Positions 8,523-34,600 of a stretch of DNA of 64,000 nt are shown here, piece by piece (the first letter of the stretch is position 1; the number at the start of each line of letters is the position of its first letter). The stretch comes from Dysidea avara (Eukaryota; Porifera; Demospongiae; Dictyoceratida; Dysideidae), in the NCBI RefSeq assembly GCF_963678975.1, contig NC_089280.1, positions 20,079,863 through 20,143,862 of the forward strand, written 5' to 3'. A model generated the notes under the pieces. The model was not told where the DNA came from and ran no database searches. It saw nothing but the letters and a program-made list of their open reading frames with translations. Both the position numbers and the translations under genes were made by a program.

Positions 8523-9580
8523 TGCATACTTATACAAATATGAATTGCACAGTGTTTTCTAGTTATGTGCTGAGGTATTGCCGAAAGTTAGTAATGGTAT
8601 ATCCAATCTATACTACAACTGGTGTTTTCATCTATAGTCATCATCTCACCTGGTAGTCCAATTAAGTATTCCCATCTGAAACACGCAATGTCTACCTCCA
8701 GTGATATTGTTGAAGTAATGTGGGAACACTGCAATAATTGACAGTCTGATATACTGAATGATGTGTCTTGAGATGAAACAAATTCATTTCCTTGCACGTA
8801 TGCATGTTTAGCAGAAGCATTCTTATTGTAAGTGCTATCCCAATAGTGACCCCTGAGAATGCTAAAACCTGTTATTATGGGAAGTCAGAATTTGAAACTA
8901 TTCTTTAGGCTAATAATTATGGCTATAGCTTGCTGAACTACTCATGACTGTCACTTATCCTTACACAATTCTTGGTCAATGTAGTCCTCTTAGAAAGCAG
9001 ATCTTTCCATAAATTTTTAGTCCTGAAACATAACAGCTTTAGCTGGGGGGCCCAGATCCCCTGCTCCATAGTTCACCCCCTCGATCTATTATTATTATTG
9101 GTAATACTGTGCAGACCTCTACTAGAGTATAGTGCACAGGTCACAACATATACATACAAGTATACAAATTAAATAATTGCTAGCTCCTGTATACTGGACT
9201 GTCTGATGTGTCCTTGTTTATGAGTTGTTTTCTGTAGTGTTCCTTATTCTGAGAAGAGTTTGCTGAGAGTTTGTTGTACAAGAGTACATAATAAAAATAG
9301 GGAGGGTACTCTTGATATTACCCATGTGAGTCATGATGTGACCATTCCACACTGCAATTATTTGATTCATGCTTTGAGTACACAAAGTACCATACGTACA
9401 TGGTCATCACAGTGTGAATGTAATAACTGATTACATTAATACGCATACTTTCTGAGCCCTGTCTACAAATCCACAATGACCTCAGCTACATGACACTTCT
9501 TTTGCCATAGCGGCTTGATGTATGGGTCATCACTTATAGCTTTCGCTCTTTGTGACATCATCTACATTGAATACCATGTT

Positions 9581-9610: not shown

Positions 9611-10130
9611 ATTATATAGGCGCGAACATTCAACAACCCACAGACCATGAATCGGATGATCGGACAGACCATGAATCGCTCAAATCCTTGAGAATGACAA
9701 TGAATCTTTAGGATTTACACGGTCTTCCACCAGGAACACGTTGCACAAGATACACTGTGGGCAAGGTGACTGTGGGGTATCGTAATCTGATATTTCATTG
9801 TGACAAAAGTGTCGATCAGGTGAAATGACCACCTCATCAAAGATGATTATTTTATATACATGATCGTCAACCTCCTCCTTTAGTTCTTATCGTAAGGGTG
9901 GCCAGTGGACACCGACATAAATAATTTAATAACTAGATAGCTACATATACACCCTATATAGTCTCGCCCCCATGGGGGACTAGCTACACCCATAGATATT
10001 ACATCCCGAGGGGCCCCGACACCAACTGGAACGAGCCCTGTTACCATGTAAACTTTCCATTTGAGTTCACGTCGTCGGTAGAGCCGGTGGGTTTATTATC
10101 TATGGTGGAGCAGAGTGTAGCTTACTAGAA

Positions 10131-10528
10131 CCACAATCGAATCATGTCATCGCTGGTTACGTTATAATTACTATTTGCAAACCTTTGAAAACGGACCAAG
10201 AGGAGTGGTTCGCACCACACCCGCGGTCCATTCATCCGATCGGGTTGCTTACAATGTTGATCGATGAGACGTACTACCAAAAAGTAGTTGGAACTCCCAA
10301 ATTTGCTAGGAAAAATCGGCACTTTGAAAGTGCCATCCCAAGCAAGAGGAGGTAGTGTGCTTGGAGGTAGTGTGCTTAGGAGCATCACTCCTTCTCCTTT
10401 GTAATAGTGTGCTTCGGAGCATCACTCCTTCTCTTATGTAATTTGGTTTACCAGTTAGGGAGATCGTTATCAAATTGTACAAGTTTTCTATCTCTTTTGT
10501 AATAGTTTAGCACTTAGCTATATCGTTA
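10131..10528. repeat. Dispersed repeat, copy A (abuts duplication edge)
   Basis: The repeat opens CCACAATCGAATCATGTCAT and contains several GTGTGCTT(A/C)GGAGCATCACT blocks and a final ATCGTTATTAAATTG. A second copy is at 22681-22952. Its last bases run directly into the ABCF1 segmental duplication at 10531, so it is a candidate for having been involved in that rearrangement. Confidence 0.6.
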
Positions 10529-11107
10529 TTAAATTGGAAGCCCCTTCTCACTAGTTCTGAAGAATGGGTAGTAGAGGAAAAGTGGCAAGTTATTGGCACT
10601 CCTGGTGGTGTTGACCCATCAAGCATATAATCCATAGAGCACAAGCTTGATTACACATCCAGACAATTACCAAGTGAGTGAGTCTGGGACATAAATAAAT
10701 TAACAAGACAAAAGGAATGCTGCTGACAACAGTAGGATCACATACCACCAGGCAAAGAAAACAACTGCTACTCGAGAGTGCCAGTCACTGCACATTTCAG
10801 CAAACTAGGTAGAAAAATTGAGCTAACAAATAAGCTGGCCAGCCATGGAGAACAAGAAAAAAATAGTTTGACAGACCATGACAGCTAAGCAGCATACCAC
10901 GCATGTAGCTGTGACTTAGGAATACAGCTTCGGATACTTTTTGTTTAAGCATAGATAATATATACCTCCTATGGTTTAAGTAAAGGAGCAAAGAGCAAAT
11001 TACATTTCCCAAGTAATGGTAGCCATTCATAGTAATCTGTATTGTAATCCCCACCTCAGCATTCTCCTTACAACTAATGCAGTCTAGGAAAATAACCATA
11101 TTGGGGA

Positions 11108-11500
11108 CTAAGATAACAAGTCCTTATTAAAGCTCACTGATCTCGTCTTGCTACCAATTACATACCAGCAAGACAAGTTTATGAGAGGCAATGTGCCAAT
11201 GGTATACATTACCATGGCCAGGGGATCACTTTGGGTTGTACCCTCACAAGAAATGATTGTCCGGCCATCTGTGAACAAGAATGCATCAATGCAATAAGTG
11301 ATCAAGATAGGAGAAGAGATGGACACTAAACTTCAACATTGCTTAGAGTGGCTTGTTAAATGCATTACTTGCATCCGCTAAGAAGACACCATCAACCTCT
11401 GACAGTGCAAAGATTTGTTTCATTGCATATACAGCTGCCTCACATCCTCCAATCTGTCCTGCACATAGCTGAGATGATCCAGCAGCCTGCAGCTACTAGA
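11108..11500 (-). pseudogene. Degenerate LINE reverse transcriptase, duplicated with ABCF1 3' flank (distal)
   Basis: On the minus strand, frames here recall reverse transcriptase of a non-LTR element. A block [17 protein letters not shown] is followed by [11 protein letters not shown] (the catalytic motif A aspartate) and then a stop. In another frame comes [14 protein letters not shown], a decayed form of the [11 protein letters not shown] motif. No YADD box was found and stops and frameshifts interrupt it. The same remnant, with QGDP intact, lies at 24841-25260 in the other unit, so it predates the duplication. Confidence 0.75.
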
Positions 11501-11595
11501 ACCAGCTCTTTTGGTATTGAGCATCCATACTCACTTTCAATTGTGTTGTATCAGTGGCATATGTAAAGTATCAATACTTTTAGTACTGCATTGCC

Positions 11596-11788
11596 TACAG
11601 TCGAACCTCTTTATTATGGACATTTCGGAATCAAGAATTTTTGGCCACTTTTTGCTGCAATATAGAGGTTTTCCTCTTTCGGAGATGCTAGATCTGTTGG
11701 GACCAAAATTTTTTTTTATCCTAATTATGAAGGTTTTTTTATTGGTCCTTAATTTGGGGAGTCTGTTATTAAGAGAGGTTCCACTGTA
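11596..11788. mobile_element. Mariner-like MITE, TA-flanked (distal copy)
   Basis: The ends are TACAGTCGAACCTCT and the inverse GAGGTTCCACTGTA, about 190 bp apart, with TA at both tips as in Tc1/mariner insertions. The proximal unit has the same element at about 25315-25482, so it was present before the duplication. Confidence 0.7.
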
Positions 11789-13925
11789 TTCCTAGTGCTT
11801 GTGGTGACTGCCTCAATTGGAGATATGCAGATACAAGTATTAATAATAATAATACCCATCTGCTATATATAGGAGGTCTCTAATCATTAGAAGACCTCAT
11901 TATCTCCCAAACATCAAAGTGTTTTATGCATATTTCTAAATATTCTGTTATATAATTAAATATAGAAATTGATGAATAAGTACATTTAAGGATCGTGTTA
12001 ATGCTGCAGCACATCTTCTCCTAGTGCCTCCAGTACTTCCTTCCTGTAATCTTCAAAGTCTCCATCAATCTCATTGATCCCACTGTCCTCAATCACCCAC
12101 AATGTGCAGCTTGTCTCTATCAACCGAGCATCGTGACTGACCAGTACCACACCTGTGAACAGTAACCACACATAGTATTACAACAGTACAGATTATCAAT
12201 ACAGTACGATTCATGCAGACAGACACGTAGTAATTCAAGTACAGGCTGTACATCAAATCAGATGAACATTTGGACAATCAATTGGTTACTTAGTACTAAC
12301 ATGGTCTAAACATACAAGTTATACATAATCCAGTGTATGTTCTATTAGAATAGTTTAGCAAACCAGCCAAATAATTAAATCACAAATCACCCACACAGTA
12401 TTCCTACCTCCTTTATATTCATTCATGGCATCAGCCAGTGCATCAATAGACTCAATATCCAAATTATTGGTAGGTTCATCCTATTGTAGTCCAGTACAAC
12501 AGTACAATAACTAGTACAATAACTAGTACAAGAGCCACTCACCATTATAATGACATCTGGTTCTCGGAGTGATAGTTCGGCAAATACCACTCTGGCTTTC
12601 TGGCCTCCTGACAAGTCTCGTATTTTGATTGTGTGGGCGTGACTTGCTAATCCATATCAACCAAGAGTCTTCCTAGCTAGCTGGTAGTTGACATCAAATA
12701 ATCTCTGAAGAGCAAGATCATGAGTTAGTTACATCATGCCATGATTAGTTGTATGTTATATTAGAGTATTTGTAACAGTTCAAATATTTTTGAAAATATA
12801 CCCGAACCCGTCCACACAATCTGATGTGCAACTGCAAACACTGGCAAACAATTAACAGGTGTATGTACTAGAGTCCCACCAAACAAAAAAGGCATTGAAG
12901 GTGGCACCACACAAACTACTCTATTAGAACAAACACCAAAAGTGTGGTGATGATTGTAATACCGAGTCACATAAGTGTCACAAGGTAACAACAAGAGTTA
13001 ATAGGGTCTTACTACTATATAGTGTGGCAGGAAGAATTCAGTACATGAACAACAATTTGTCAAACTAGACTGCTTCAACCAACACAAGTGTTTATTGCTA
13101 ACAATTGTTGCAACTAAATCGGCAAGGTTTACAACCTCCACTTACCCACACTTAATTTTTCTAAACCTAACTTTCTGAGTAGACTTTTTAGCCACTGCTT
13201 CTGAGACTAGTGTTGCAACAATATGAGATTTTGCCAATATCCCAATAGCTGATACTTTCAAACTAATAAATGACGTCATGATGACGATCTGACATGAACA
13301 AATGTTTAATATTTTCAGCTTATAAGTGCCGAAGGTGCTGATATTCTAAAGGGCCAAATTTAACACACTTATAGTGACAATATATACATTGCATGTTGCT
13401 GCAGCAATACTTCATTTTAAATGTAGGAGAATGCATGCACAAACTTAGTGAGGTAAAAACAAGGTTGCATTTTGTACATATGTATTAACTGTATCTGCTG
13501 CATTTTTTGGTCTCATGGTACTGATCTGATACTGATACACAATAATACAGTATATACAGCCAATATAATATTATGGTCTTTCTGATAACACTACTGCAGT
13601 CCTCTATCTGCATCTCAAATAAAAGATATTTGAGAACATTACATATGGCACATACTGTAGGACTAGTGAACCATTGTTGATATCTGATAAACCTCACCTG
13701 AAGATATTCTACAGGTGTCTCCCTCAGTTCCAACTGATCAGCAGCATGTTGGTTATATACACCAAGTCTCTGTTGAAGATAAAGGGGGTACACTAGGGAC
13801 ATGAATGGAACACACACCACTTACCACTCTATGATTCTTCCTTACTTCACCATTCACCTACACAAAAACACAACATAGCTGTAGGGAGCTGTTGGACAGG
13901 CAGTTAAGCATGCATGTGTAAATGT

Positions 13926-14243
13926 TTGTAATGTGTTGTACCCTGTTCTGTGTAATGTGTTATGCTCTGTTCTATGTAATGTGTCGTGTTCTGTAATGTG
14001 TTGTGCTCTATTCTGTGTAATGTGTTGTGCTCTGTTCTGTGTAATGTGTTGTGTTCTGTTCTGTGTAATGTGTTGTACTCTGTTCTGTGTAATGTGTTAT
14101 ACTCTGTTCTGTGTAATGTGTTGTGCTCTGTTCTGTGTAATGTGTCGTGTTCTGTTCTGTGTAGCTAATGTGTTATGTTCTGTTCTGTGTAATGTGTTGT
14201 GCTCTGCTCTGTGTAATGTGTTATGCGCTGTTCTGTGTGTGCA
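13926..14243. repeat. 24-bp minisatellite, about 13 units
   Basis: The unit is close to TGTAATGTGTTGTGCTCTG plus TTCTG and is repeated about 13 times within an intron of the duplicate. The equivalent intron of the proximal unit (27577-27624) has only two units, so the array expanded in the distal copy. Because 24 is a multiple of three, a frame stays open through the array and gives a Cys/Val/Leu-rich pseudo-peptide that is not a gene. Confidence 0.9.
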
Positions 14244-14457
14244 TGAGTGAGGTAAATACACATATATGTACTACATTTCTGGTAGTAGAAAACACTCTAC
14301 CAATTAGTGTATACTTCGTAAATATGCATTTGTAATGCCCTAGCACCTCCCAGGGGACAATGAGTAACCCACTTACAACAAAACTCTTTAATGGCCCATT
14401 AAGTAAACTTTTGCCCCCACAATGAAAACATCAGCAGCACAGCATGCATACATCAAT

Positions 14458-14796
14458 TAGTGCTGAAATGATTATTCGGTTATTTGACTATTCGGTCAGC
14501 ATGACACTATCCGATTCATTAAACACACTATTCGAATAATCGTTATCATTTTGTACACTGTATTCAGATGGAAAAGCCAGCCTTGAAACTTAAGATTGTG
14601 AATGAAGTGATGTATCTATGCTATAAAAATTCTATTTTAGAAAAGACAGAAATAGCTGTTAGGCTTTACCTTGCTCTATAACAAAAGGTTTCAGTACTTG
14701 TTCAATAGAAGTATAAGCATTAAAGAATAATCGAATATTTGGTCGTTTTGTTCACAACTATTCGAATAGTAAAAATTTCTATTCGTTTCAGCACAA
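14458..14796. mobile_element. MITE with TAGTGCTGAAA ends, private to distal unit
   Basis: The left end TAGTGCTGAAATGA is mirrored by TTTCAGCAC at the right. The interior has inverted ATTCGAATA repeats. The proximal unit lacks this segment between the same flanks, so it inserted after the duplication. The TAG-type ends and an imperfect 8-bp flank repeat (ACATCAAT / ACACCAAA) suggest hAT, with less certainty than for the elements at 1022 and 27726. Confidence 0.65.
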
Positions 14797-16639
14797 ACAC
14801 CAAACACACAAACATACACACCACACACTGGTGTCACTAATCCAAACAGCAGGTTTAGCAAGGTTGTCTTCCCCACACCATTGGGGCCCACAATAGCAAC
14901 TACAGAAATAAACTAACACACTAAAATACAACAACTGTGACACACTTCTTGAGTCCATATCAACTCCAAAGTTCAGCTCCTTAAACAGCACTGGACGACC
15001 AGGGTAGCCAAAATCAACATCTAAAATTGTTCAGATTCAAATATACACTGTACCATTGACATACAGAGACAGTACACACAATATGTATACATGTAAGTAC
15101 AACAGTGTAGCCAGAAGTCAATTATGTTAAGAACCTTATTGGCCTCAATGGTAGCTACATTACTGAAGTCTAACTATGAAAGTTATTGCAGCACACTATA
15201 TTCGACGTACAACAAAAGCAAAGTGTTGCTTAGCCAGTGAAGAACTGGGACTACTCAGGGTTAAAGTGTAGACAAATTCTCCACACCATAAGCTCCTAAA
15301 ATAAGAGGGTTGAGAGGAGGAGGATCAGGGAATGAAAATTTCACTTGATATTCACGTGGCTTCTCTAGCAACTGCTGCGGCTCATCATCGTCATCCTGAA
15401 GATGATAAATGTTGTATATATACACGGTCACCAGTGACCACAATACAGTACACACTACACATGCATATAGCATATAGTGGGGTTTCTTTGAGGTGAAAAC
15501 ATTTTGTGGATCGCCACCATCCAAAATCTCGAGGGGGAAAATTTCACTTCTTCAGGATCTTTTATGCTAATTTGATTGAGTTGCAAATTTCGAGGAGAAA
15601 ATTTTCACGGACAGCAGATAATCTGTTCAAACATTTTCCTCAGAAAAAGCCGCTATACAGTACTTATACATCCATACATGTACATACATAGTGACTACAC
15701 CATACTGCATGCTAACATGTATTGTGTACATACGTACACAGACTACACAAGTACCCACCTCCTGTACTTTCTGTTTGCCTTTCGCTGATTTTGACTTCAT
15801 TGCTGCTGATTTCTTCACACCTTCCTCCTAATGAAGCAAAATGTATTAGTGAAACATGAGGGAATGTAAAATGGGCAATAAAGTCCACAATAGCATATAG
15901 CTACAAATTGGTTTAGTGATACTAAATTAGTTACATAGTTTGCCAGACTTAATTGCCAAAAAAAAAATAATCGGAACTTTCGGAAACACAGTTCAGTTAA
16001 GCCATGGGAATGAATTATCATAAAATTCTAATAAACCATTGTCCACCAAATGACTTACTAACTCACTTACTGTGTGGGCCCTGGATCATAACCTCACCTT
16101 GTACATTTCCTGACTTATTGCAGTGACGTTACTAGTGACAGCACAAACTAACCCACTTGTACAGACAGTGGGACACTAATTTGTTGGTTGGTTTGTTTCC
16201 TAACTACCCATTCTACAGCCATTTACCCACAAGAATTGCTTCTCTTGGTTCAGTACCTTCAACAAACAGAGGAACTGTCACCCACTCATTCACATACACA
16301 CTGACTCCATGGACAACGTAATAATAATATTGATAATAAGATTTAGTAATTTTATGCACAGACAAATCATCATTACCAGACTACATTTTTGATATCTTGC
16401 CAACCCTATGTACAGTTCATTTGATAAATATATCATTACAATGATTTTCTTTCCCATTGCCATGTGGCTATCAAATAACTACTGTTGCAGTGTATAGCCA
16501 GTTTATCACCAAGTATGCTACTATAGACACAACACCAATAACTTTTACAGGGGCTTTTCTGATACATACTGTGAGAAGTTAGTTGGCATTTATTAGATCC
16601 TCAATGGTTGGAGTATTGTACAAAGAAAACATTTCATAT

Positions 16640-16822
16640 GCAAGTAAAATGAAACTTAGGAATTTCAATTTGGATTAGGAAAAAAAGTAACCTATAATGT
16701 AGATATACTAGTGGACATTAATCCATAAGATTAAGTGTCCACTAGTATATCTACAGGTACAGGCAACCTTCCTTGTTTCACTACTTTTTGTTTTCTTTGA
16801 TCCCTAATCCTATTCTACTTGT
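16640..16822. mobile_element. Hairpin MITE (copy 2 of 3), distal unit
   Basis: CAAGTAAAATGAAA at the left is mirrored by TATTCTACTTG at the right, with the central GTAGATATACTAGTGGACAT stem shared with copies near 3705 and 31370. Confidence 0.65.
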
Positions 16823-16854
16823 TTGTTGATAAAATGAACCAGCATATAAGAACA

Positions 16855-17347
16855 CAGTGGCGGATCTAGATGGGTTTCTGGGGTTTCGAAACCCCCTTTA
16901 AATTTAGCTCAGTGGAAGTCTAAATACATAAAAATTGTTGTACTGGCAATTTGTCACATCAAACAACTATATACCATTGTATTTCAGTAGCATGCATGCA
17001 GCTGCACTTAACAGACACCATTTATAGCTATAAAACCCTCAGCAACACTTCACTTTTCATATCTCACTGCAATAAAAACGATCGAGATACTCTAATAGAG
17101 CAGTCAAGTAACTACTCTAATAGAGCAATCAAAGCCACATACAGCTTATAGTCACCATCTTTGCCCTATATAGTTAGCTATAGTATTTATAGTTTAAAGG
17201 ATTTGTAATTGCTAACTAAAAGTAGCCTAAAATCCAATCTCAGGGCTTCTAAAATCTCAAAATTTTCTGGAGAAATGTCACCAGATGCCTTATTCAGCTA
17301 TACCAACTTTCAGAAACCCACTTTTAAAAATCCTAGATCCGCCACTG
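16855..17347. mobile_element. MITE with CAGTGGCGGATC ends and GAACA direct repeats
   Basis: The element starts CAGTGGCGGATCTAGATGGG and ends with the inverse GATCCGCCACTG. GAACA flanks both sides (16850-16854 and 17348-17352). The homologous place in the proximal unit has a single GAACA and no insert, so this is a clean insertion younger than the duplication. It carries two ACTCTAATAGAGCA(G/A)TCA modules near 17088-17133. Confidence 0.8.
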
Positions 17348-18412
17348 GAACAGCACTAGGAATGCCATAAAAGTAATTTTGCATCTGAATACGTGGCACA
17401 ACAACTAATTATGTACCCTGTAACGAAAGGGAGGTGGCCATTACCCTTTGTTTTCAGCTATGCTTCACCAGTTACAACACAGTGTTATAAACTATACAGT
17501 ATGGGAAAAAATATGGGTGATAAGCCTGAAAGCCAACATAGCCACAGGGAAACCGCATCGTGCTATCATACATTGATACCTTGTGTTGTCATCGAAAGAA
17601 AGTTCTGGAACACAAAAGAGGACAAAGGCAAGTCCATGATGTATATTGTATGTACTGTGGTTGGTGAAATTGCACATTCCAGGACGAAGTGACTTCGAAC
17701 AGTGAAGAAATCAACCCTGTAGCCTTATCCATTGCTGAGTTACACTTGGATGGAGGCATCAGTTCAGTCAGTCAGCATAGAATTTTTTTAAAATCCATAG
17801 AAACTTTTTTGGAAGGGTTTGGAAGACATTTCTGGGCTTGGTTGTGCTGTTGCGAAGGGAAATTGAGGCTGGTTTTAGGGTGATAATTTTGGCCCATTCT
17901 TCATGATCCTATAAGGCTGACATTGACAACAACTGGAGTGACTACTGGAACCACAACCTAGCTGAGTCATACTCACTGTCTGCAGTGACCTCATCATTGC
18001 AAAACTTGCAAAAACCTGTATTATCGTGTACACTAAAAATGATGACTCATTCTCACCAACTTGGAAATGACTAAGGCACATTAACCCAGGGTATTTCCTG
18101 ACCACAGAAGACACTAGAGGAAGTGGTGCTATGGTGGTCATAACCACCAGCCACATGTGGTACAAACAAGCATATAATATGAAGTACTAACACAACATAC
18201 TTTGATGGTACCTATATAACTGTGTCACGTCATAATTTATGTGAAAATGTGCACCTTATAATTTCTTTTGGAAAGCACTCACTAAAAATTTGAGAACACT
18301 ATGACAGTCTACAGCAAGTAAACTGGATAACAAGACACAGATTCTAATAGAATGCCTCCCTGGAAGGAGTGGCATTACTGCAATGTATGTATGTACTGTA
18401 CTAAATGTTTTA

Positions 18413-19170
18413 TTATTATATTTGTTACTGTGCAGAAATCAAAAAGATTGTTGTGCACAGGTGTGATCATAATGAATGTTCAGGTTAGTACAAAACTCAT
18501 CTAAGGTAGGGGAGTGAATTACAAAGGGGGGGGGGTGTGTTCCAGAGTCTGATTGTAGAAGGGAAAAAGGAAAATTTATAAGAATCAATCATAGTGTCAA
18601 GCTGTTTATAATAACCTTCCCTTGATGGACGATGATTAGGTATTAGATCATTTGTGGGTATACTTAGATTGCCATTAATTATCTTATACATTGTAGTTAT
18701 CTTAGACTTGTTTCTTCTTTCTTCGAGGGTAGGTAAATTTAATGATGACATCATTCTTGTTACACTACTAAATCCAGAAAAATCATTGTAGCAAAATCTA
18801 GCTGCTCTCCTTTGGATAGACTCAAGTTGGTTTATGTTGGTGTGGGTGTGGGGGGCCCAGACAGAAGATGCATATTCAACAATGGGACGGACCATCATCT
18901 TATAACAATTGCTCTTAACAGAAACAGGGCATTGGTGAAGGTTACGGCGCAAGAATCCATTAACCTGGTTTGCTTTGTTAGTGACTCTTTGAATGTGTTC
19001 ATTCCATGATAGTTTCTGGTCAATGGTGAACCCGAGATATTTCGTGTGAGGAACCTCAGAGATGATAGAATTCTCCAGATGATAGCTATGAACGATGGGA
19101 TTTCTTTTATTGGTAATTCTCAAGTGTTCGCATTTCTTAATGTTAAATTCCATCAGCCAAGTATGAGCCT
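18413..19170 (-). mobile_element. 5'-truncated LINE (CR1/jockey-like RT C-terminus), private to distal unit
   Basis: A minus-strand frame of about 218 codons (18497-19153) is the C-terminal part of a non-LTR reverse transcriptase. It reads HTKYLGFTIDQKLSWNEHI, then a YGAA-like segment VRPIVEYASSVWAPHT, QLESIQRRAARFC and a terminal RLWNTPP. The frame is open, so the copy is fairly young. The proximal unit lacks this segment between the shared flanks. The element's 3' end is an ATT/AAT-rich tail at about 18411-18430. RT motifs upstream of this are missing, as expected from 5' truncation. Confidence 0.85.
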
Positions 19171-20613
19171 AGATTAGCAATTCTGTCAATAAATCATATT
19201 GGTGTCTTTTTAAATCTGGAAAATGGGTTTATGGAACATTGGAGAAATGGCAAATTATGTGGACACTAAAATAGCAACTAAAATCATACATATAGTATTG
19301 AATAACAAGTGTTATTGCTTACACAAAATCACGACCTATGCCTTGTAGCAAATAACAAGTAAACAAAACAAGTACATGGTCACTACATGTGTAGTGTTTG
19401 CACTTACTGCAGGCTAGAAGCTTTTTTAGCTTTTATCTCCTTCACTTGTTTCTCATAAGCTTTTTCTTGTTCCTTGTGTTTCTGTTTGTACATCTTCTTG
19501 AACGTGTCTGTGTGTACAGAATCAATGCTGAACCATGCAGTAACAAGTAGCAATAATTAAACTAAATCTATTGGATTTAACTAAATCTATTGGATTTACA
19601 ACATGATTTTTCTGTTATTTTGTTTTGGGGTAAGGGTATTTAACAGAATAGGAGGGAGAAATTTTCAATTCTCATTAACTTAAGAGTGGAAATTCCATGA
19701 CAAACCCACTGGTAAAACTCCCACACACTATAACTCTGCATGATACGAAATGATGCACACAGATCAAATGTTCACATAATCCATGTAGGTTATTGTGTGG
19801 TGTACTCACTAGTGTAACAGTTGATGTTGGATCAAGAGCACTATCATATAGCTATGTGAATTATTGACTTCAAAAACTAAATGTCTTGTAGTAGTTTTAT
19901 TGTATGCAATGCATTAAACAGAGATGATGAAATTTGAAGAGTTAGGTATAGCTATCTATGGTGCCACTGATAACTTGTAAGGGTAGCTAGTTTCAGCATG
20001 GCAAGTTGCAAGCTTCAATTTGAGAAAGCGTTCCGTTCTGTGGTTTAGTACATCACTATTCCGTTCCGTTTCGTCCGTAGAATAGACCCCACCAAATCTT
20101 GGTTTTTTTTTGTTGTTTTTTTTAATCTTAGTATTTCAGATTCGAGCTGGGTGGAGCTGCTGGTGGTACGTACATGCATCATAATTATGAAATCACAGAA
20201 ACACTACCAACTGCTACTACTAGCAAACGTTTTTAACCATCATTTATCATTATTTTAAACAAAATTACGTGACCAGTGTGGCATCAAAAGATATAGGCCT
20301 ACTTTATTCTACGGACTGGACTGGACTCGCGGACTGGACTGGACTGGTGGACTGAACTGGAAACAGATTTATTTATTTATTTATTTAAAACTTTATGGTG
20401 TAAACACACCAAAGGCCTGAAGGTAACTTGTACCAACAGCCTTGTACATTACCCTATGTTACTTATTTACATATTTATTTACATACATACATACATACAT
20501 ACGTACAGTTGCTAAGGAGAGTTTAGATTGAAGGTGGGTGGCTGTAACTGATAAATTCTTGAGAAAGAAGTTAAGTAACATGTACAGTTGCTCTTATCGT
20601 CAAAGTTAATAAC

Positions 20614-20895
20614 TTAATGATCATTGGTAGTAATAGGAGTCATTACATATGATTCTGTGCTGCTGGACCTTTCAATTGTGCCAAAGAGACTCTTGTTGAC
20701 ATAAATGTTGTTTCCTCTTAGCTTGACAAAATTCTTGTCAGTGCCATTCTGAGCTAATTGCCACCTTGTTCTCAGATAGACTGCTTCGATTGCTCTTTCT
20801 TCTCTGGTCATGACAGGTTTGATTAGAATTGGTCTTGGTACTGAGGATCTTTTAGATAAGACAGATGTTGCATCAAAAGTGCGAAGAAATTTAAT
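20614..20895 (-). pseudogene. Retroelement ORF1-like C-terminal fragment
   Basis: A minus-strand frame reads through a segment RPILIKPVMTREERAIEAV, then LRTRWQLAQNGTDKNFVKLR and GNNIYVN before a stop at 20614. This pattern (TxEER, then R-W-L-x-Q-x-G, then K-L/I-R-G-x-x-I-Y-V) recalls the C-terminal region of LINE ORF1-type proteins. It has no start and is short. The identification rests on pattern memory only. Confidence 0.4.
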
Positions 20896-20950
20896 TAATA
20901 TAGGTCTGGTCTGGTCTGGGTAATATAGGTCAGGATAATGCCTGGATTAT

Positions 20951-21507
20951 TTAACAATAATCCAGGCATTATCCATCCCTTGAAACACTGGAGACACTAC
21001 TATCGAGCTATAACTGCTGGTACTGCTCTTCCTTACAAGTCAGATGACACTAGCGCATGCACTAATCAATTAGAATACACTTACGATACACGTGTACTCG
21101 CAGTGATAAAGCGTGACAGAGGCTATTGCTCTAGCGTACATGTTTTCCTTTGTTGCTTCAGTACTTAACACTAGCGTTAGGGTTGTAGTGATGAGCCAGA
21201 TTATTTGCATAGCCCCAGCACCTCGCTCCGTGGTGCCACCTCACTACCTGTTAAGAATAATTACTGGCTCATCTCTACAGCTGTAACACTAGTGCTAAAA
21301 CAACAAAGGAAAACATCTACGCTACAAGAATAGCCTTTTTCACGCTGTATCACTGCTAGTACGGCATGTATCATAAGTGTATTCTAATTAATTAGTGCAG
21401 GCGCTAGTGTCTTGATTTGTGCGGAAGAGCCAGCAGCAGCAGTTGTAGCTCGATAGTGGTGTATCCAATGTTGCAAGAGATGGATAATTCCTGGATTATT
21501 GTTTAAA
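20951..21507. mobile_element. Foldback element, about 250-bp arms
   Basis: The arm at 20951-21200, opening AATAATCCAGGCATTATCCA, is the inverse complement of 21245-21507, which closes TGGATAATTCCTGGATTATT. The spacer is about 45 bp. Long stretches match, for example CACTACTATCGAGCTATAAC against its complement near 21440. A transcript across it would form a long near-perfect hairpin. Confidence 0.8.
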
Positions 21508-21770
21508 AGCTGTTTCCAGCTCAGTCCAGTCCGTGGAACAAAGTAGGCCCATCAGAAGTATTGGAAAGGACTTTGGCACCATTGAGACTGGAAATCCCGT
21601 GCCGTGATGGGTGAGAAGCCTCAGATCCTTTCCAGACTAACAACATAGACAGACTATGCATCCAACCTTATCATGATCACGTCACTATGAGGAAGAGTTA
21701 GCTCAGTTTTCTTGTCTTAGCTGGTAGGGCAGTTTAAATTCGAGTTCCGTTTTCTGCTTTTTGAAAGAAA

Positions 21771-22330
21771 GCAACCCTGTGCCAGGAACCCATGCAGTGA
21801 ATCATTTGTTTATTACTGTGCGTACTACAAATACCTATTGTGATGTTGTATGGGTGCCTACTAGTGTTGGCCATCTTAAGAGACTGGAAAGACTTCATTC
21901 ACGGTTTTCATCATATGACTCTGCCAAATCTTCTGCATTTAATCTTACTTTAGTTGAACGTCGCAGATTCCATACTGCCATACAAGTATACAAGATCTTA
22001 AAAAGGCTATCACCCTCCTACTTACTTTCCACATTCAGGTCTGCTTTATCCGTCACAGGTCATGCAGGGCACAATGTCCATCGTTTTTATGTACCTGCTG
22101 TGCGATTAAACTATGGCAAATGAAGTCTATATTATCGTGGCACAACTATATGGAACAGCCTGCCTACCTCAATCACCGAGATGAACTCATTAAATCATTA
22201 CCAAAAATACATGATCATGGGACATGTGTATACAGAGTTGTTTGGTAATGATAGCTTTAAGCTAGCTTATTTACTTTAGTTAATTGTGTGTATATATGTA
22301 CCTATATTGTTTTGTATGCTTGTTCAGGGC
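21771..22330 (+). pseudogene. LINE reverse-transcriptase C-terminal remnant
   Basis: The plus-strand frame includes HLKRLERLHSRF, then ERRRFHTAIQVYKILKRLSP. After a TGA at 22122 the same frame continues with YRGTTIWNSLP. This is the typical end of CR1/L2-like LINE ORF2 products. The in-frame stop and missing upstream motifs mark it as dead. An A-rich tail with AATAAAAAAT-type sequence follows near 22385-22405. Confidence 0.65.
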
Positions 22331-22680
22331 ACAGCTGAAAAACAGCTTTTGCTGATCGATGCTGTCTCCCTGTTTAAATAACATTAAAAAATATAATAAA
22401 AAATAATACCTTTAGACTCAAAATATCTAGCTAAGTAACAAGTTTTATCCTGTTCTTTGTGCGGAGCACGAAATTTTAAAACTGAATAATTTTTGCATAT
22501 CATGCAGTCTCACGAAATACTAAAATCGATATAGCTGTGAAGACAACAACCGTACGAGTACCTCCAGATTCATGGTGGATCTAGTAATGGGGTACTAAAA
22601 TGAACACCCCACAATGGTAGGGGGATCGATTTGTAAAAGTTGATTTTTTGGATTGCAAACCCCAGTATAGCCTACAAAAA

Positions 22681-22952
22681 CCACAATCGAATTATGTCAT
22701 CGCTGGTTACGTTATAAATACTATTTGCAAACCTTAAACAATGGGGCGAAATTTAGAGGACCGATGGAAAATTCCCCCACTACTACCAAAGTAGCTCAAC
22801 TTTTATGGCACTGCTAGTGCAGAATAGAAGAGGAGGTGCATTGCTAGTGCACAATTGAAGAGGAGGTGCATTGCTAGTGCAAAATTGAAGAGGAGGTGGT
22901 GTGCTTAGGAGCATCACTCCTTCTCTTTTGTAATGGTTAGTTAGCAGTTATA
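22681..22952. repeat. Dispersed repeat, copy B
   Basis: Starts CCACAATCGAATTATGTCAT and contains GTGTGCTTAGGAGCATCACT and a closing ATCATTATCAAATTG, matching copy A at 10131-10528. Between them it has three tandem GAAGAGGAGGTG-type blocks. Confidence 0.6.
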
Positions 22953-24018
22953 TCATTATCAAATTGTTTTATGCAATTAGTTTTTTTATAAATAATATGA
23001 AACAAGAAAAATTACCCACTTCTGACACCATGTGGTATTCACAAGAGTTTAACTTTAATGTAGCCTTCTGCGACCTGCATGCAGCCTCAACAACTAGGCA
23101 GCACAAGTTGGATTGGGTACCACATATGCACATTAATTGCAGACCGCAACAAAGAAAAACTTAACTTGCATTAAATCCACTCCATCAGTACACTGTAAGG
23201 AAGGCCTGTGCATGGCATCTTGTAGGTTGGCCAACCCGTACGAGTGGTTGAATTCCCCATACCTCCCGCTGTAGTAAAAATCAGATGTGTGAAATGAGAC
23301 CATTCGTTGTCTCTAATTCTCCATTCATATTCCTTTCTCTTCTTCAGTCTTGATCATAGGCAGACTGGACAGGTTGGCTTGAAGAAGCACTTGGGTTTTA
23401 AAATTACAAACATCAAAAGAAGACCTCTCAAACCCCCTCCTTCTCTCCCCATCCAGAGCAATATCAAGTCCTGCACCAGAATCATAATTAACAGTTCTAA
23501 AGTAAAGATGGGTGAAGAAAAGACGAGATATTCAGTCTCTATGTCTTTTCAATATATAGATGTTTTACTCCATGATCAAAAACTCTCATCACTAGAGGTC
23601 ACAACAAAAGATTCAGTACAATATCATTGACAGTTGATAGCTACAAGTTTAGCTTTTTCCACGAATAATTCCTCAATGGAATGTTTTGCCAAGTACTACT
23701 GTGAGTGCACCGACTCTAGAACTATTTTCAGCACTCATACACCAGTGTCTGTCCAGTGATCACTTTACTTAACTACTTACTTATTTCCTTATCTATACAT
23801 ACTTACACTCAAGCATATATATGAGTTTTACAATTATAATATAGCTAATAATGAGGATACAACTTCAACATTATTGCAAATTTCATTCATCATGCTAGCT
23901 GTGAAGTCACAAACTCTATTGAAATGCATTGTAAAGATGGAAAACCATGTTCAGCTGTGGAAGAATGTCCACAAGCACATGAGGTGGGAGTCCAGTGATG
24001 ACATACTGGTAGTATGGG

Positions 24019-24594
24019 TCTCAAAATCAGTCAAAAATCACAGTACTTAAACTCCAGCCACAGATTTATAAACACTGCTACAGATTTAATAAAATACTGC
24101 TACAGAATTAATAAACACTGCACCAGATATATAAATCCTGCTACAGATAAATAAATACTGCACTAGATCAGATATATAACAGCAATTTTGACCAATCAAA
24201 TTACTTCTTGGTAAACTTCAATGTATGAAGGTTCCAAAGACATCACAGAGATGAGAACTCCAATGTGCAGTGATTGTGCAACAACAGTTATTGAAACAGG
24301 CATCACATACATGCAGAAGTCATGGTCAATGATTTGACCAATTGAATCACTTCTTTTCAAAGTATGACTATGTGTATGTAATTTTCTGTTTAGTGTTTTC
24401 ACACAACAACTATTTGAACCACTGTAGCTTACCAAGAAGTGATATGATTAGTCAAAATTGGTATGATTACATAATATCATTCTGCATGTGCGGTATTTAT
24501 ATATCTGGAGCAGGAATTATTAAATCAAATTAGTAGCAGTGTTTATAAATCTGCAGTTGGTGATTAAATACTGTGATTTTGACTAATTTTGAGA
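24019..24594. mobile_element. Inverted-repeat element, TCTCAAAAT ends
   Basis: The left arm TCTCAAAATCAGTCAAAAAT ... CACAGATTTATAAACACTGC is mirrored by GCAGTGTTTATAAATCTGCA ... GACTAATTTTGAGA on the right. The arms are about 60 bp and there is no coding frame. Repeated 'CTGCTACAGAT(A/T)ATAAA' blocks near the left arm look like local tandem duplication. Confidence 0.65.
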
Positions 24595-24840
24595 CAAATG
24601 GCACCCTATAACACAGGGCAACAGCATCATGGAATACAGAGCAAAATTGTGACGTTTTAGAGGAAGAAAATTGGAAGCCCCTTCTCACTAGTTCTGAAGA
24701 ATGGGTAGTAGAGTTATTGACACTCCTGGTGGTGTTGACCCGTCAAGCATATAGCTAATCTATAGAGCGCAAGCTTGATTACACATCCAGACAATTACCA
24801 AGTGAGTAAGTCTGAGACATAATTAAGTTAACAAGAAGAA

Positions 24841-25260
24841 TCAATCTTCAAAGGAATGTTGCTGATATTGAGGACTCAGACAGCAACAAGTTCTTGTAAA
24901 GTTCACTGATCTTGCCAATAATTTACCAGCAAGACAAGTTATGAGAGGCAATGTGCCATTGGTATACATTACCATGGCCAGGGGATCACCTTGGGTTGTA
25001 CCCTCGTAAGAAAAGATTGTCTGGCCACCTGTGAACAAAAATGCAACAATACAATAAGTGATCGAGATAGGAGCAAGAGATGGACACAACACAAAACTTC
25101 AACATAGCTTCAGAGTGGCTCGTTGGATCAATTAAATGTATTACTTGCATCCACCAAGAAGACACCATCAACCTCTGTCAGAGCAAAGATCTGTTTCATT
25201 GCATGTGCAGCACCTCACATCCTCCAATATAGCTGAGATGATCCAGTAGCCTGCTAGAAT
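24841..25260 (-). pseudogene. Degenerate LINE reverse transcriptase in ABCF1 3' flank (proximal)
   Basis: The minus strand encodes [21 protein letters not shown], the conserved box after RT motif A. Upstream is a decayed DASN-type block near 25140-25200. Frames are interrupted and no YADD was seen. It is the sister of the remnant at 11108-11500. Confidence 0.75.
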
Positions 25261-25314
25261 TGGTATTGAGCATCAGGTATTAGTACCTTTAATATTGTAT
25301 TGTCTACAGTGGAA

Positions 25315-25482
25315 CCTCTTTATTGCAGACATTTTGGGACCTTTTTGCTGCAATAGAGGTTTTCCGCTTTCAGAGGTAAAAAATGTATTAGCTAGACCTG
25401 TTGGAACCAAACTTTTGTCTTTATTATGGAGGTTTTTTCTATTGTGTCCTTAATTCAGGGAGTTTAAGAGAGGTTCCACTAT
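25315..25482. mobile_element. Mariner-like MITE (proximal copy)
   Basis: TACAGTGGAACCTCT at the left and GAGGTTCCACTATA at the right, about 165 bp apart, orthologous to 11596-11788. Confidence 0.65.
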
Positions 25483-25641
25483 ATTCCTAGTGTTTGTGGT
25501 GACTCCTTCAACTGGAGATATGTAGATAACCATCTGCTGGAGGTCTCTAATCATTAGAAGACCTCATTATCTCCTAAAGATCAAAGTGATTTATGTATAC
25601 CACTTTCTGTTATATATATAGAAATTGATGAATAAGTACAT

Positions 25642-28600
25642 TTAAGGATCGTGTTTATGTTGTAGCACTTCTTCTCCTAGAGCCTCCAGTACTTCCTTCC
25701 TGTATTCTTCAAAGTCTCCATCAATCTCATTGATCCCACTGTCCTCAATCACCCACAATGTGCAGTTTGTCTCTTGTATCAACCGAGCATCGTGACTGAC
25801 CAGTACCACACCTGTGAACAGTAACCCACACATAGTATTACAACAGTATAGCTTATCAATACAGTATGATTCATGCAGACAGACATGTAGTAATTCAAGT
25901 ACAGTCAGCAAAAAGGTTGTACATCAAATCAGATGAACATTTGGACAATCAGAAAGATAACACAAATTCTTCCACAATTGGTTACTTAGTACTAACACGG
26001 TCTAAACATACAAGTTATACATAATGCAGTGTACATTCTATTAGAATAGTTTAGCAAACCAGCCAAATAATTAAACCTCACAAATCACCCATACAGTATT
26101 CCTACCTCCTTTATATTCATTCATGGCATCAGCCAGTGCATCGATGGACTCAATATCCAAATTATTGGTAGGTTCATCCTATTGAAGTCCAGTACAACAG
26201 TACAATAACTAGTATAAGAGCCACTCACCATTATAATGACATCTGGTTCTCGGAGTGATAGTTCGGCAAATACGACTCTGGCTTTCTGACCTCCTGACAA
26301 GTCTCGTATTTTGATTGTGTGGGCGTGACTTGCTAATCCATATCGACCAAGAGTCTTCCTAGCTAGCTGGTAGTTGACATCAAATAACCTCTGAAGAGGA
26401 AGGTCATGAGTTAGTTACATCATGCTATGATTAGTTGTATGTTATATTAGAGTATTTGTAACAGTTTAGATATTTTTGAAAATATGCCCACATAATCTGA
26501 TGTGCAAATGCAAACACTGGTGAACAATTAACAAGTGTATGTACTAGAGTCCCCCAGTTTGTACACCAAACAAATAAGGCATCAAGGGTGGTAACGCACA
26601 AACTACTCTATTAGAACAAACACCAAAAGTGTGATGATTGTAATACCGAGTCTCATAAGTATCATAAGGTAACAAGAGTTAATTCAATACATGAACTACA
26701 ATTTGTCAGTGTTTCAACCCAACACAAAGTGTTTATTGCTGACAATTGTTGCAACTAAATTGGTAAGATTTATAACCTCCACTTTCCCACACTTAATTTT
26801 TCTAAACCTAACTTTCTGAGCAGATATTTTAGCCACTGCTTCTGAGACTAGTGTTGCAACAATATATGAGATTTTGCCAATATTCCAATATATAGCTGAT
26901 ATTTTCAAACTAATAAATGACATCATGACGATGATCTGATATGAACAATGGTTAATATTTTCAGGAACTTATAAGTGCTGAAGGCGCTGATATTCTAAAG
27001 GGCCAAATTTAACACACTTATAGTGACAATATATACATTGCATGGTGCTGCAGCAATACTTCATTTTAAATGTAGGAGAATGCATGCACAAACTTAGTGA
27101 GGTAAAAACAAGCTTGCATTTTGTACATATGTATTAATTGTATCTGCTGCATTTTTTGGTCTCATGGTACTGATCTGATACTGATACACAATATACAGTA
27201 TATACAGCCAATATAATATTATGGTCTTTCTGATAACACTACTGCAGTCCTCTATCTGCATCTCAAATAAAAGATAATTTGAGAACACTACATATGGCAC
27301 AATAGGACTAGTGAACCACCGGTGATATCTGCTAAACCTCACCCGAAGGTATTCTACAGGTGTCTCCCTCAGTTCCAACTGATCAGAAGCATGTTGGTTA
27401 TATACACCAAGTCTCTGTAGAAGATGATGGGGTACACTAGGGACATGAACGGAACACACACCACTTACCAGTCTATGATTCCTCTTTACTTCACCTTTCA
27501 CCTACACAAAACACAACATAGCTGTAGGGAGCTGTTGGACAGGCAGTTAAGATGCTATCCTGTATGTGTAAATGTCTGTAATGTGTTGTACTCTGTTCTG
27601 TGTAATGTGTTGAGATCTACTCTGTGTGTGCATGTGTGAGGTAAATACACATATATGTACTATATTTCTGGTAGTAGAAAACACTCTACCAAATAGTGTA
27701 TACTTCATAAATATGCATTTGTAATTAGTGTTGTACCGATATGGGATTTTGTCGATATTCCGATAACCGATATTGGATAATATTTTCAAGCCGATAAATG
27801 TAGCCGATCCGATATAGCACAGCATGCCTATCTTGTAGCAATTTTTACTAGAAATTTGATTATGAAGGGTCAATTTAGCTTGTTTATAGCAGCAGTATTG
27901 CTACAACAACGGCTGACAGTACAATGAAGCAGTAATAACAACATTTAAATCAGGGGCGGTGGAGCAGGCCAAAGAGGGGGGGGGGGGCAAGCCAGCTGTG
28001 AGTTGAAGACCAAAGAAAAAAAAATCACAGTCTGCTAACAATAGCTGCTCTTCACAAATTATATCTCCTTATTTATAACTACACATACATAGCTAAGTAA
28101 TTTGCTACACTGCTTCTCTGAATGTGACTGCTCTATTAGAGTATTCAGATCCTGACTGTTCTATTAGAGTATCTCAATCTTTTCTTGCAAACAGTGTCCC
28201 AAAAAAGTGGGGGGGCCATGGCCCCCTCCCCCCCCCGTCTCCACCGCCTATGGTTTTAATGCAGGAAAAGGCAACTCGATACATTTGTAAACATGACAAG
28301 CATTGTATTTCTAAATACATACATAATATCTGTATCTGCTGCTTTTTTCATCATGGCGCCGATCCGATACCGATATACAAAAAAAGAGTCGATACATGGT
28401 TTTTCCGATAACTGATCCAAATATCGGTGCAACACTATTTGTAATGCTGGGCCTCCCAGGGGACAATGAGTAACCCACTTACAACAAAACTGTTTAATGG
28501 CCAGGTAAGTAAACTTCAGGCCTCGGTCATCGAGAACACTTGTATGTGCAGCCTTGTATGTGCAGCCTTGTAGTTGGCTGGTAAAGAAAATCCCTAGTCT

Positions 28601-31600
28601 CCACCACACAGTCAGGGACAGAGGTACTACCATTACCAACAAGTGGTGTGTTACTAGGCCCACAATGAAAACATCACCATACATATACCAAACACACATA
28701 CTACATACCGGTGTCACTAATCCAAGCAGCAGGTTTAGCAAGGTTGTCTTCCCCACACCATTGGGGCCCACAATAGCAACTACAGAAATAAACTAACACA
28801 CTAAAAATACAACAACTGTGACACACTTCTTGAGTCCATGTCCACTCCAAAGTTTAGCTCCTTAAACAGCACTGGGCGACCAGGGTAGCCAAAATCAACA
28901 TCTAAAATTGTTAAGATTCAAATATACACTGTACCATTGACATACAGAGACAGTACACACAATATGTATACATGTAAGTACAACAGTGTAGCCAGAAAAG
29001 TTGATTAAGTTAAGCACACATGACTGTTCTATTAGAGTATCTCAATCTTCAGCAGTACCAGATTCTTTTTTAAAGGCAGCAGCTGTCTTATTGGCCTCAA
29101 TGGTAGCAGCTACATTACTAAAGTGTAACTATGAAAGTTATTGCAGCACACTATATTCCACTTACAACAACAAAAGCAAAGTGTTGCTTAGCCAGTGAAG
29201 AACTGGGACTACTCAGGGTTGAAGTGCAAACAAATTCTCCGCACTTACCATAAGCTCCTAAAATAGGAGGGTTAAGAGGAGGAGGATCGGGAAATGAAAA
29301 CTTCACTTGATATTCACGTGGCTTCTCCAGCAACTGCTGTGGCTCATCATCATCATCCTGAAGATGATAAATGCTGTATACATACACCAGTGACCACAAT
29401 ACAGTACACACTACACAAATACATACATACTGTATATAGCAGGGTTTCTTTGAGGTGAAAACATTTTGTGGATCGCCATCATCCAAAATTTCAAGGGAAA
29501 AACATTTATAATACTTAAACAATGCCAATTTGATTGAGCTGCAAACTTTGAGGAGAAAATTTTCATGGACAGCAGACAATCCGCTCAAAAATTCTCCTCG
29601 GAAAAGGCCGCTATACAGTACTTACATTCATACATGTACATACATAGTGACTACACCATACTGCATGCTATAACAAAAAACATACAACATGTATTGTGTA
29701 CATACATACACAGACTACACAAGTACCCACCTCCTGTACTTTCTGTTTGCCTTTCGCTGATTTTGACTTCATTACTGCTGACTTCTTCACACTTTCCTCC
29801 TAATGTATTAGTGAAACATGAGGGAATGTAAAATGGGCAAAAAGTCACAAAACTGTATACTGTAGCTACAAATTGATTTAGCCTTTTTTTTTTGTTTTCC
29901 CGGGCTAGATGGACTGCCCTTGCCACCACCCCCAGCACTAGGTGTTGAAGTGCTGGACAGCTGGAAATACCAGCAATCAAACAAGGCCACCTGACTCCAA
30001 GCGGCCCTCGGAGTAGGCCAGATCAAAATTAGTGGTTGATAGACGGCCAACTGAAAAGCGATGACCCCTCAAACACATCACTGCAGATCTTAACAATGAA
30101 AAGCAAAGCCTACATCGCAGCCAGAATAAGCACTTGCTGTAATGAATGCTACGCTTCTCAGCCAACATTGAAGCAAGCTTCCTGAAAACCGTTGTAGCAG
30201 TGGGCCCCATGCCACCAGTAGCTGCAAACACCAATGGTGAAAAGCAAGCTCTCTCAACCTCTCTAACACGCTCATCATATGCCCGTCTTTTTTCACGTTC
30301 ATGAAGCTGGTAACATCTAGACAATTGGGAGGGAAAATAAGAGCGTGCAAAAGGGTTGAAAACCCTGACATCGAAAAATGCACACTGCCTATTTCGACTC
30401 CAAAAATCCCTGGCAACAACATCAAGATGGGCACCATCTTCACTATTGGCAGTAGTAAATTGCAATGGCTCACCATCAAGAGGCTGGAGAGCAGGCTCAA
30501 GACCAACATCACTGCACACTTCACTTAACAGACTTGCAGTTAAATCCCTGACTTCATTGTGGTGGATAGATGGAAACCCGCCATAGGGACAAGTAAAGGC
30601 CTGCTCCACATAAAAGGGTTTACCACAAACACACGACAAATTGGTTTAGTGATACTAAATTAGTTACATAGCTTGCCAGACTTAATTACCAAAAAAATAA
30701 TCGGAAGCGCAGTTCAGTTAGGTCATGGGTATGAATTATCATAAAATTCTAATAAACCATTGTCCACCAAATGACTTACTAACTCACTCACTGAGTGGGC
30801 CCTGGATCATAACCTCACCTTGTACATTTCCTGACTTATTGCAGTGATGTTACTAGCGACAGCACAAACTAACCCACTTGTACAGACAGTGGGATTTGTA
30901 CACCCACTAGTTTGCTGGTTAGTTTGCTTCCTAACTACAGTGTCATTCTACAGCCATTTCACCCACAAGAATCGCTTCCCTTGGTTCAGCACTTCAACAA
31001 ACAGAGGAACTGTCACCCACCCATTCACATACACACTCCATAGACAACGTAATAATATTAATAATAAGAATTAGTAATTTTATGCACAGACAAATCATCA
31101 TTACCAGACTACAGTTTTGATATCTTGCCAACCCTATGTACAGTTCATTTCATAAATACACCATTACGATGGTTTTCTTTCTCATTGCCTTGTGGCTATC
31201 AAGTGACTACTGCTGCAGTGTATAGCCAGTTTATCTCCAAGTATGCTACTATAGACACGACACCAATAACTTCTATGAGGGCTTTTCTGATACATACTGT
31301 GAGAAGTTAGTTGGCATTTATTAGATCCTCAATGGCTGAAGTATTGTACAAAGAAAACATTTCATATACAAGTAGAATGAAAAATTGGGAATCTTAATTT
31401 AGATTAGGAAAAAAAAGTAACCTATAACTGTAGATATACTAGCAGACATTAAATCCCTAAGATTAAGTGTCCACTAGCATAACTGCAGGTACAGGCAACC
31501 TTCCTTGTTTCACTACTTTTTGTTTTCTTTGATCCCTAATCCAACTTAAAATCCTAGTTTTCATTCTTCTTGTTTGTTTACTTTTATGATAAAATGAACC

Positions 31601-34600
31601 AGCACATAAGAAAGAACAGCGCCAGCAAGAATACATAATAATAAAAAGAAGATTTTATATATTATGTACTCTTGGCACCAGGAATGCCATAAAAGTAATT
31701 TTGCATCTGAACGCATGCCACAACAATCAATTATGTACCCTGTAACTAAAGGGAGGAGGCCATTATGCTTTGTTTTCAGCTATGCTTCGCCAGTTACAAC
31801 ACAGTGTTATAAACTATGAACAGTATGAGAAAAATACGGGTGATAAGCCTGAAAGCCAACACAGCCACAGGGAAACTGCATCGTGCTATCATGAATTGAT
31901 ACCTTGCATTGTCAGCGAAAAGAACTGGAACACGAAAGAGGACAAAGGCAAGTCCATGAAGTGTGTATTGTATGTACTACGGTTGGTGAAATGGCACATT
32001 CCAGGATGAAGTGACTTCTAACAGTGAAGAAATCAACCCTGTAGCCTTATCTGGAGGCATCAGTTCAGTCAGTCAGCATAAGGTTCTGTTAAATAGAAAA
32101 TTTTAAAAATCCATAGAAACATTTTTGGAAGGATTTGGGGGTGAAGACATATTTGGACTTGGTTGTGCTGCTGCCAAGCTGTCTTGAAGGGAAATTGAGG
32201 CTGGTTTTAGGGTAATAATTTTGGCCCATTCTTCATGATCCCTAATACTATTGCACTGTATGATAAGGCTGACAATGACAACAACTGGAGTGACTACTGG
32301 AACCACGACCTAGCTGAGTCATACTCACTGTCTGCAGTGACCTCATCATTGCAAAACCTGCAAGAACTTGTATTATCGTGTACACTAAAAATGATGACTC
32401 ATTCTCACCAACTTGGAAATGACTAAGGCACATTAATCCAGGGTATTTCCTGACCACTGGAGACACTAGAGGAAGTGGTGTTACGGTGGTCATAACCACC
32501 AGCCACATGTGGTACAAACAAGCATATTATATGAAGTACCAACACAACACACTTTTTGATGGTACCTAACTGTGCCATGTCATAATTTATGTGCCACAAA
32601 ATGTACACCTTGGAATTTCTTTTGGAAAGCACTCACTAAAAATTCGAGAACAGTTTATTCCTGAAAAGAAACTAGTTTCTGAATATGATGGACCACAAAA
32701 GTACTGCCATGACAGTCTACAGCAAGTAAACCGGATAACAAGACACAGATTCTAATAGAATGACTCCCTGGAAGGAGTGGCATTACTGCAAATGTGTGTA
32801 TGTACTGTACTAAATGTTTTACAGATTAGCAATTCTGTCAATAAATCATTTTGGTGTCTTTTTATATCTGGAAAATGGGTTTATGGAACATTGGAGTAAT
32901 GGCAGATACTGTGGACACTAAAATAGTGACTAAAATCATACATACATATAGTATTGAAAAACAAGTGTTATTGCTTACACAAAATCACGACCTACGTCTT
33001 GTAGCAAATAACAAGTAAACAAAACAAGTACATGGTCACTACATGTGTAGTGTTTGCACTTACTGCACTCTTCTTGGACTGGCCAGAAGCTTTTTTAGCT
33101 TTTATCTCCTTCACTTGTTTCTCATAAGCTTTTTCTTGTTCCTTGTGTTTCTGTTTGTACATCTTCTTGAACGTGTCTGTGTGTACAGAATCAATGTTGA
33201 ACCATGCAGTAACAAGTAGCAATAATTAAACTAAATCTATTGGATTTAACTAAATCTATTGGATTTACAACTTTTCTGTTGTTTTGTTTTTGGGTATTTA
33301 ACAGAATAGGAGGGAGGATTTTTCAATTCTCATTAAAGTGGAATTCCATGACAAACCCACTGGTAAGGACTCTCACATACTTAAACTCTGCATGATATTG
33401 CATTACAAATTGATGCACACAGATCAAATGTTCACATACGCCATGTTGGTTATTGTGTGACGTATTCACTAGTGTAACAGTTGATGCTGGATCTTTTCAA
33501 GATCACTATCATATACGTGAATTATGGTACTTCAAAAACTAAATGTCTTGCAGTGTACACAATACATTAAACAGAGATGGTGAAATTTTACCTTGTCAAA
33601 TGATTTAAACAGCAATTGAGCAACACTATTTTGAGCAACCACAAAAAATACTAAATGATAGTATACTAGAGATCATGAAGGTGTATACTTTGACAAAAAA
33701 AAACAAAAAAAACATTGACCAGAAATCAACCTCACAATTACCTTCCTTCATGGTGCCTTGGCAGCATTGGTTAGGTACCTTCAGTGTGAGTTCTGATAGG
33801 TTGCTATGACATTTTTAAAATTCTGGAATTTCTACTGGTTAACTACCATATAACCTAAATATTTCGAGGGGGAAAATTTTTCACTGATTTCGCGGTTTTG
33901 GGTGTTATCAGCGAAAATTTTACCCTTGAAATATTTAGACCTCCATATAGTCTAATACATTTTGGGAGTGTTTGCAAATCCGCGAAAACTTTATTTTTAG
34001 CAACATTACTCAACCTCGAAATATTTGCCCCTCGAAATATTTAGGCTATACGGTAACTGTAACTGCCTTCAGACAAGCATAACTCAATAATAACTAATTC
34101 TCAGGTATGCATATCTTCTACTGAACCATGCAGTTATAACACCATTTGCAAGACAGCTTTGATTACTCTTTTAGAGCTTCGGCCATTCAATTAACTCTTG
34201 TTAATGTCCTCAATTTAATAAGGGCTTAATTGAACCCTGACAATGATAATTCTAAACAATGTCTTGTACTACATAACAAGCACTCAGTGTTGTGGTACAA
34301 ACCTCGACTACAACTAATGAATGGTTGTGGCTGGTCAAAACGACATTAATGGCAGTTGCTACATGGTTTGCATTAGCCCCTCAAGCAAAATAGAAACATG
34401 TTTTCAAAAATATCTGCACTGCACCTTGTATGGTAACCTGTCTAATGCTGCCACTAAAAGTGAACACCCAGACATTGTGTTAAGGACCCCAGTTTAGTGC
34501 ATAAACTGACCACAAAATCAGGACACCATCATAGTGCTAGAAATGAAGATTAAAAACCAGTTGACCATTGTTTTTTTTGTTGTTTTTTTTTGTATGTAGA

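Follow-up and report, generated by a model that had tools for sequence, protein, structure and literature searches.

The window, the whole stretch of 64,000 nucleotides of Dysidea avara DNA that was analysed, was found to contain an intact ABCF1 gene and, in the same orientation, a headless copy of its 3' half. The main features of the locus are the following.

25642..40339, minus strand: ABCF1 gene, one open frame of 20 exons and 700 aa (exon model)
22664..33588, minus strand: duplicated block inside the intact gene, holding exons 11-20, part of intron 10 and the 3' flank (self-BLAST plus left extension)
10114..19935, minus strand: duplicated block, headless copy, very probably a pseudogene (self-BLAST, exon alignment, left extension)
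19936..22663, no strand: spacer
29882..30635, minus strand: insertion private to intron 11 of the intact gene
18413..19170, minus strand: insertion private to the headless copy

The exon model of the intact gene (40339-25642) was drawn by eye, and the human protein served as the guide. It showed GT-AG boundaries at 19 of 19 introns and a single open frame of 700 aa, which carries two ATP-binding domains with the motifs GPNGHGKTT / FSGGW and GPNGVGKTT / LSGGQ; we take the first member of each pair to be the Walker A motif and the second to be the signature motif. The C-terminal 277 aa were compared with the solved ABC-F proteins, where the human ABCF1 structure 5zxd was the best match (E 5.3e-130), ahead of the next chain, ARB1 (6r84, E 6.2e-77), and the gene is hence named ABCF1. 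Intron 1 also holds a repeat of 0.62 kb (38455-39078), which has at least 39 further copies at 88-91% identity.

Self-BLAST of the window at E 1e-10 listed 14 matches of at least 100 bp. Eight of these, with bit scores of 215-3203, linked 10531-19935 with 24668-33588 as a collinear direct repeat. The repeated part runs from within intron 10 through exons 11-20 of the 20 ABCF1 exons into the 3' flank. The unit at 24668-33588 is the upstream one because ABCF1 lies on the minus strand. The initial annotation had named the gene as ABCF1, had credited the upstream unit with all its frames and splice sites, and had described a direct repeat of ten exons and the 3' flank, that is a half-gene tandem duplication with an intact upstream gene and a headless downstream copy; all of this was confirmed by the structural match, the exon model, the self-comparison and the exon alignment. 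Its limits for the repeat also agreed with the matches, except that the block runs further to the left. The sequence at 22664-22967 matched 10114-10478, which lies to the left of the headless unit, and the match consisted of three pieces with 82-93% identity; the block therefore spans 10114-19935 and 22664-33588. A genome search with 10080-10530 (4 of 4 candidates scored) returned five matches: the probe itself, two at 22664-22967 and, at other places in the genome, two weak matches 65 and 69 bp long. The 1.7 kb at 22968-24667 are present in the copy within the intact gene and have no counterpart in the headless copy, which reflects extra sequence in one copy or loss from the other. Both copies share orientation and chromosome, only part of the gene is repeated, and they lie gap-free on a single contig with no N in the window.

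The exons of the headless copy were located by alignment with those of the intact gene. Of the 931 bases aligned, 38 were mismatched, and there were another 16 gap columns. The ten exons are listed below.

19408..19507, minus strand: exon 11', with a 13-bp deletion that causes a frameshift
15759..15827, minus strand: exon 12'
15287..15395, minus strand: exon 13', donor changed from GTAAGT to GTGTGG
14946..15020, minus strand: exon 14'
14829..14899, minus strand: exon 15', presumably carrying the Walker A motif of NBD2
13825..13857, minus strand: exon 16', with four differences, all four missense
13698..13769, minus strand: exon 17'
12543..12704, minus strand: exon 18', where CGA of the intact gene is replaced by an in-frame TGA ahead of the signature motif
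12408..12480, minus strand: exon 19', with two differences, both synonymous
11986..12152, minus strand: exon 20', with an in-frame 3-bp deletion and AAA changed to TAA four residues ahead of the ancestral end

Three of the ten exons thus carry lesions, in addition to the altered donor of exon 13'. The TGA of exon 18' was flagged as well in a search of the genome with the C-terminal protein, and exon 20' holds three further missense changes. The basic splice signals were retained (AG at 10 of 10 acceptors, GT at 9 of 9 donors). The copy has kept its introns and acquired disabling mutations, as in an unprocessed pseudogene. Intron 15 of this copy includes a minisatellite with a 24-bp unit in about 13 copies (13927-14238), which is represented by about two copies at 27577-27627 in the intact gene.

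The divergence between the copies was computed from nine collinear BLAST pieces, an off-diagonal match of 84 bp being omitted. Non-coding sequence differed at 399 of 5909 sites, or 6.75% (391 of 5858 without overlaps), and the exons gave a dS of 0.116 and a dN of 0.023. The 22 synonymous differences are close to the 19.0 expected from the intron substitution pattern. Nonsynonymous changes made up 16 of the 38 coding differences against 21.0-22.6 expected for a headless copy neutral from birth (P 0.02-0.07). With human ABCF1 as outgroup the two stops fell on the headless branch, and the missense changes were divided into three on the headless branch, six on the intact branch and five of uncertain branch. 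Yeast ARB1 disagreed with the human state at three of all these sites (152, 156 and 180). Nine headless missense changes, the upper bound, against 22.2 expected gave P 0.001 by a Poisson test and 0.017 by a binomial test conditional on synonymous changes; assignment of all 14 to the headless branch gave 0.04 and 0.10, respectively, and P for neutrality from birth accordingly ranged from 0.001 to 0.10 depending on the test and the branch assignment. The shortage of missense changes is a hint, and not proof, that part of the divergence may have arisen while both sequences were functional, perhaps as alleles. Non-coding divergence was 4-9% in 21 of the 27 windows (300 bp each) that had data, and two windows (27000 and 33000) were below 2%. 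Gene conversion was considered as the main cause of the few missense changes and was rejected, as just 2 of the 27 windows were below 2%.

Other sequence occurs in both copies and between them. The insertion in intron 11 of the intact gene lies between two copies of a 14-bp repeat that differ at one position, and it has genome copies of up to 95% identity among the matches listed (best 40 of 11379 candidates). The insertion in the headless copy contains an ORF that resembles reverse transcriptase by eye, with no flanking repeat seen around it. A Pfam search with the ORFs of the two insertions gave no match; judged by eye, both are putative retroelement pieces. The spacer was compared with both outer flanks at E 1e-3 and matched neither, the only matches being within the block. 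It holds an inverted-repeat element (about 20292-21552) with matches on both strands at many places, and a dispersed element of 0.54 kb (20368-20909) appears to split it in two. This dispersed element was perhaps recently active, because its copies are 97-99% identical among the matches listed (best 40 of 4110 candidates).

The number of copies was assessed in the genome of 550.8 Mb in 108 contigs, in which the window lies on contig C9. A 601-bp probe from the unit found only the two places in the window (2 of 2 candidates scored) and no third copy. The C-terminal ABCF1 protein gave 23 matches (140 of 167 candidates scored), 14 of them in the two window copies; the other nine lay on contigs C3 and C11 at 30-56% identity and are presumably other ABC proteins. 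The neighbouring MRPS2 had one match in the genome. A DNA search found no second 5' half of ABCF1 among the best 40 of 4043 candidates, many of the scored places being taken up by repeats.

These results argue strongly that the headless copy is a partial tandem duplicate of ABCF1 which has become a pseudogene. A tandem duplication with edges in intron 10 and some 1.3-1.9 kb behind the stop codon would have put a second set of exons 11-20 into the interval that separates the intact gene from its 3' neighbour. Such a copy would have been born without the first ten exons and presumably without a promoter. The outer flanks would both have remained where they were, so that the intact gene was not affected. 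The duplicated half would have lost its coding capacity through the frameshift, the nonsense mutation and the early stop, and other sequence would have been inserted into both copies and between them. The partial tandem duplication is supported by the direct collinear repeat, by the spacer unlike the outer flanks, by the lesions and the private insertions, and also by the lack of a third copy in the probe and C-terminal protein searches, the single MRPS2 and the agreement of observed and expected synonymous differences. We infer a single tandem event and a copy without a product. Two observations count against the simplest form of this explanation, as the missense changes are fewer than expected for a duplicate neutral from birth, and the copies do not meet at a clean head-to-tail junction but are separated by the 2.7-kb spacer.

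The missense deficit could be accommodated by unequal exchange between two diverged haplotypes, in which case most of the divergence would be allelic and would have accumulated under selection, and the headless copy would have been born recently and decayed afterwards. This origin is a real possibility that we hold tentatively: the fairly even divergence along the block is consistent with it, but the deficit is just moderately significant and the direction of the changes depends on human ABCF1, with which yeast ARB1 is partly in disagreement. The deficit would also be expected if the second copy had formerly been a full-length paralogue whose front half was lost later. This history is doubtful, as the spacer did not match 33589-64000 at E 1e-3, so that no trace of exons 1-10 or their introns was found there, and the DNA search gave no second 5' half among the best 40 of 4043 candidates.

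It is unlikely that two haplotypes of one locus were laid in a row by the assembly. A divergence history which looks partly functional, as with alleles, would fit such an artefact, and allelic divergence near the 6.75% seen in non-coding sequence is possible in some marine invertebrates. Against it, the window has no N, MRPS2 is single, the sequence to the right of the headless copy is unlike that to the right of the other unit, the sequence to the left of 22664 is unlike that to the left of 10114, and three lesions in an allele of a conserved gene seem improbable. Two haplotypes set end to end would be expected to match each other beyond the block. Alignments of these parts scored 31, 40 and 28, where the highest scores of 20 shuffles each were 33, 33 and 32; the score of 40 comes from one exact match of 20 bp. 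The flanks beyond the block are thus without a match, and in view of this and of the lesions a real duplication is the preferable interpretation.

The initial annotation had proposed that splicing past the first terminal exon could yield chimeric or extended transcripts. Joins of intact to headless exons were made by script in 110 combinations. Ten of these were in-order joins, leading from exon N to exon N+1' for N = 10 to 19. Eight of the ten stopped at 422 or 581 aa, ahead of the second signature motif, and the remaining two, 18 to 19' and 19 to 20', were in frame with a near full length of 695 aa. Some out-of-order joins continued for 74-158 residues and stopped ahead of the second signature motif, skipped that motif or repeated parts of the domain. 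Useful chimeric products lost support in view of the frameshift, the nonsense codon, the early stop and these truncations. It is very improbable that the duplicated 3' exon set was for part of its existence a second, selectable 3' half of ABCF1 that gave alternative ends, with exons 19' and 20' maybe still used. Also very improbable is the use of exons 19' and 20' as alternative 3' ends of ABCF1 by splicing beyond its first terminal exon, for which the two in-frame joins and the purely synonymous differences of exon 19' speak, and which is opposed by the deletion, early stop and three missense changes of exon 20' and would require transcription to continue beyond the first transcript end and an intron about 13.6 kb long to be spliced out.

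The partial tandem duplication can be set beside known partial duplicates. PMC3449122 gives their share as 21% for C. elegans (290 young duplicate pairs), 27% for D. melanogaster (new genes), 53% for D. pseudoobscura (pairs) and about 7% for yeast. The earlier description of a half-gene tandem as unusual is therefore weakened, since partial duplicates form a large share of young animal duplicates in these data. As in the C. elegans and Drosophila surveys reviewed there, one copy is complete and the other lacks part of the ORF and has a disrupted frame. The ABCF1 pair differs in its dS, just above the range of 0-0.1 counted for C. elegans, and in the 2.7 kb of other sequence which set its copies apart. 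Barley HvARM1, a partial duplicate of HvPUB15, is reported as functional (PMC6092874); there too part of a gene was duplicated into a separate unit, whereas the reading frame of the ABCF1 half copy is broken by a frameshift and stops. No earlier report of an ABCF1 duplication was found in the part of the literature surveyed. The half copy of ABCF1 adds a decayed example to the known class of partial duplicates, and mutational decay is an ordinary fate for such a duplicate. Should the missense deficit be confirmed, the locus would illustrate how diverged alleles can give rise to a partial duplicate. Annotation calls for caution here, as automatic gene callers may fuse both units or call a second ABCF1, and short RNA reads will map ambiguously in exons 11-20.

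Scans of the window for tRNA and Rfam families were empty, and a TGF-beta domain was noted in a neighbouring gene. A sequence of about 97 bp at 9087-9183 has at least 38 genome copies at 96-98% identity and is probably a short young repeat. On the plus strand, 41480-42769 forms a glycosyl hydrolase 16 frame (PF00722 in its second part), whose one interruption is a TGA at 42095-42097; the gene may be disabled, or the TGA may be a polymorphism or an error in the sequence.
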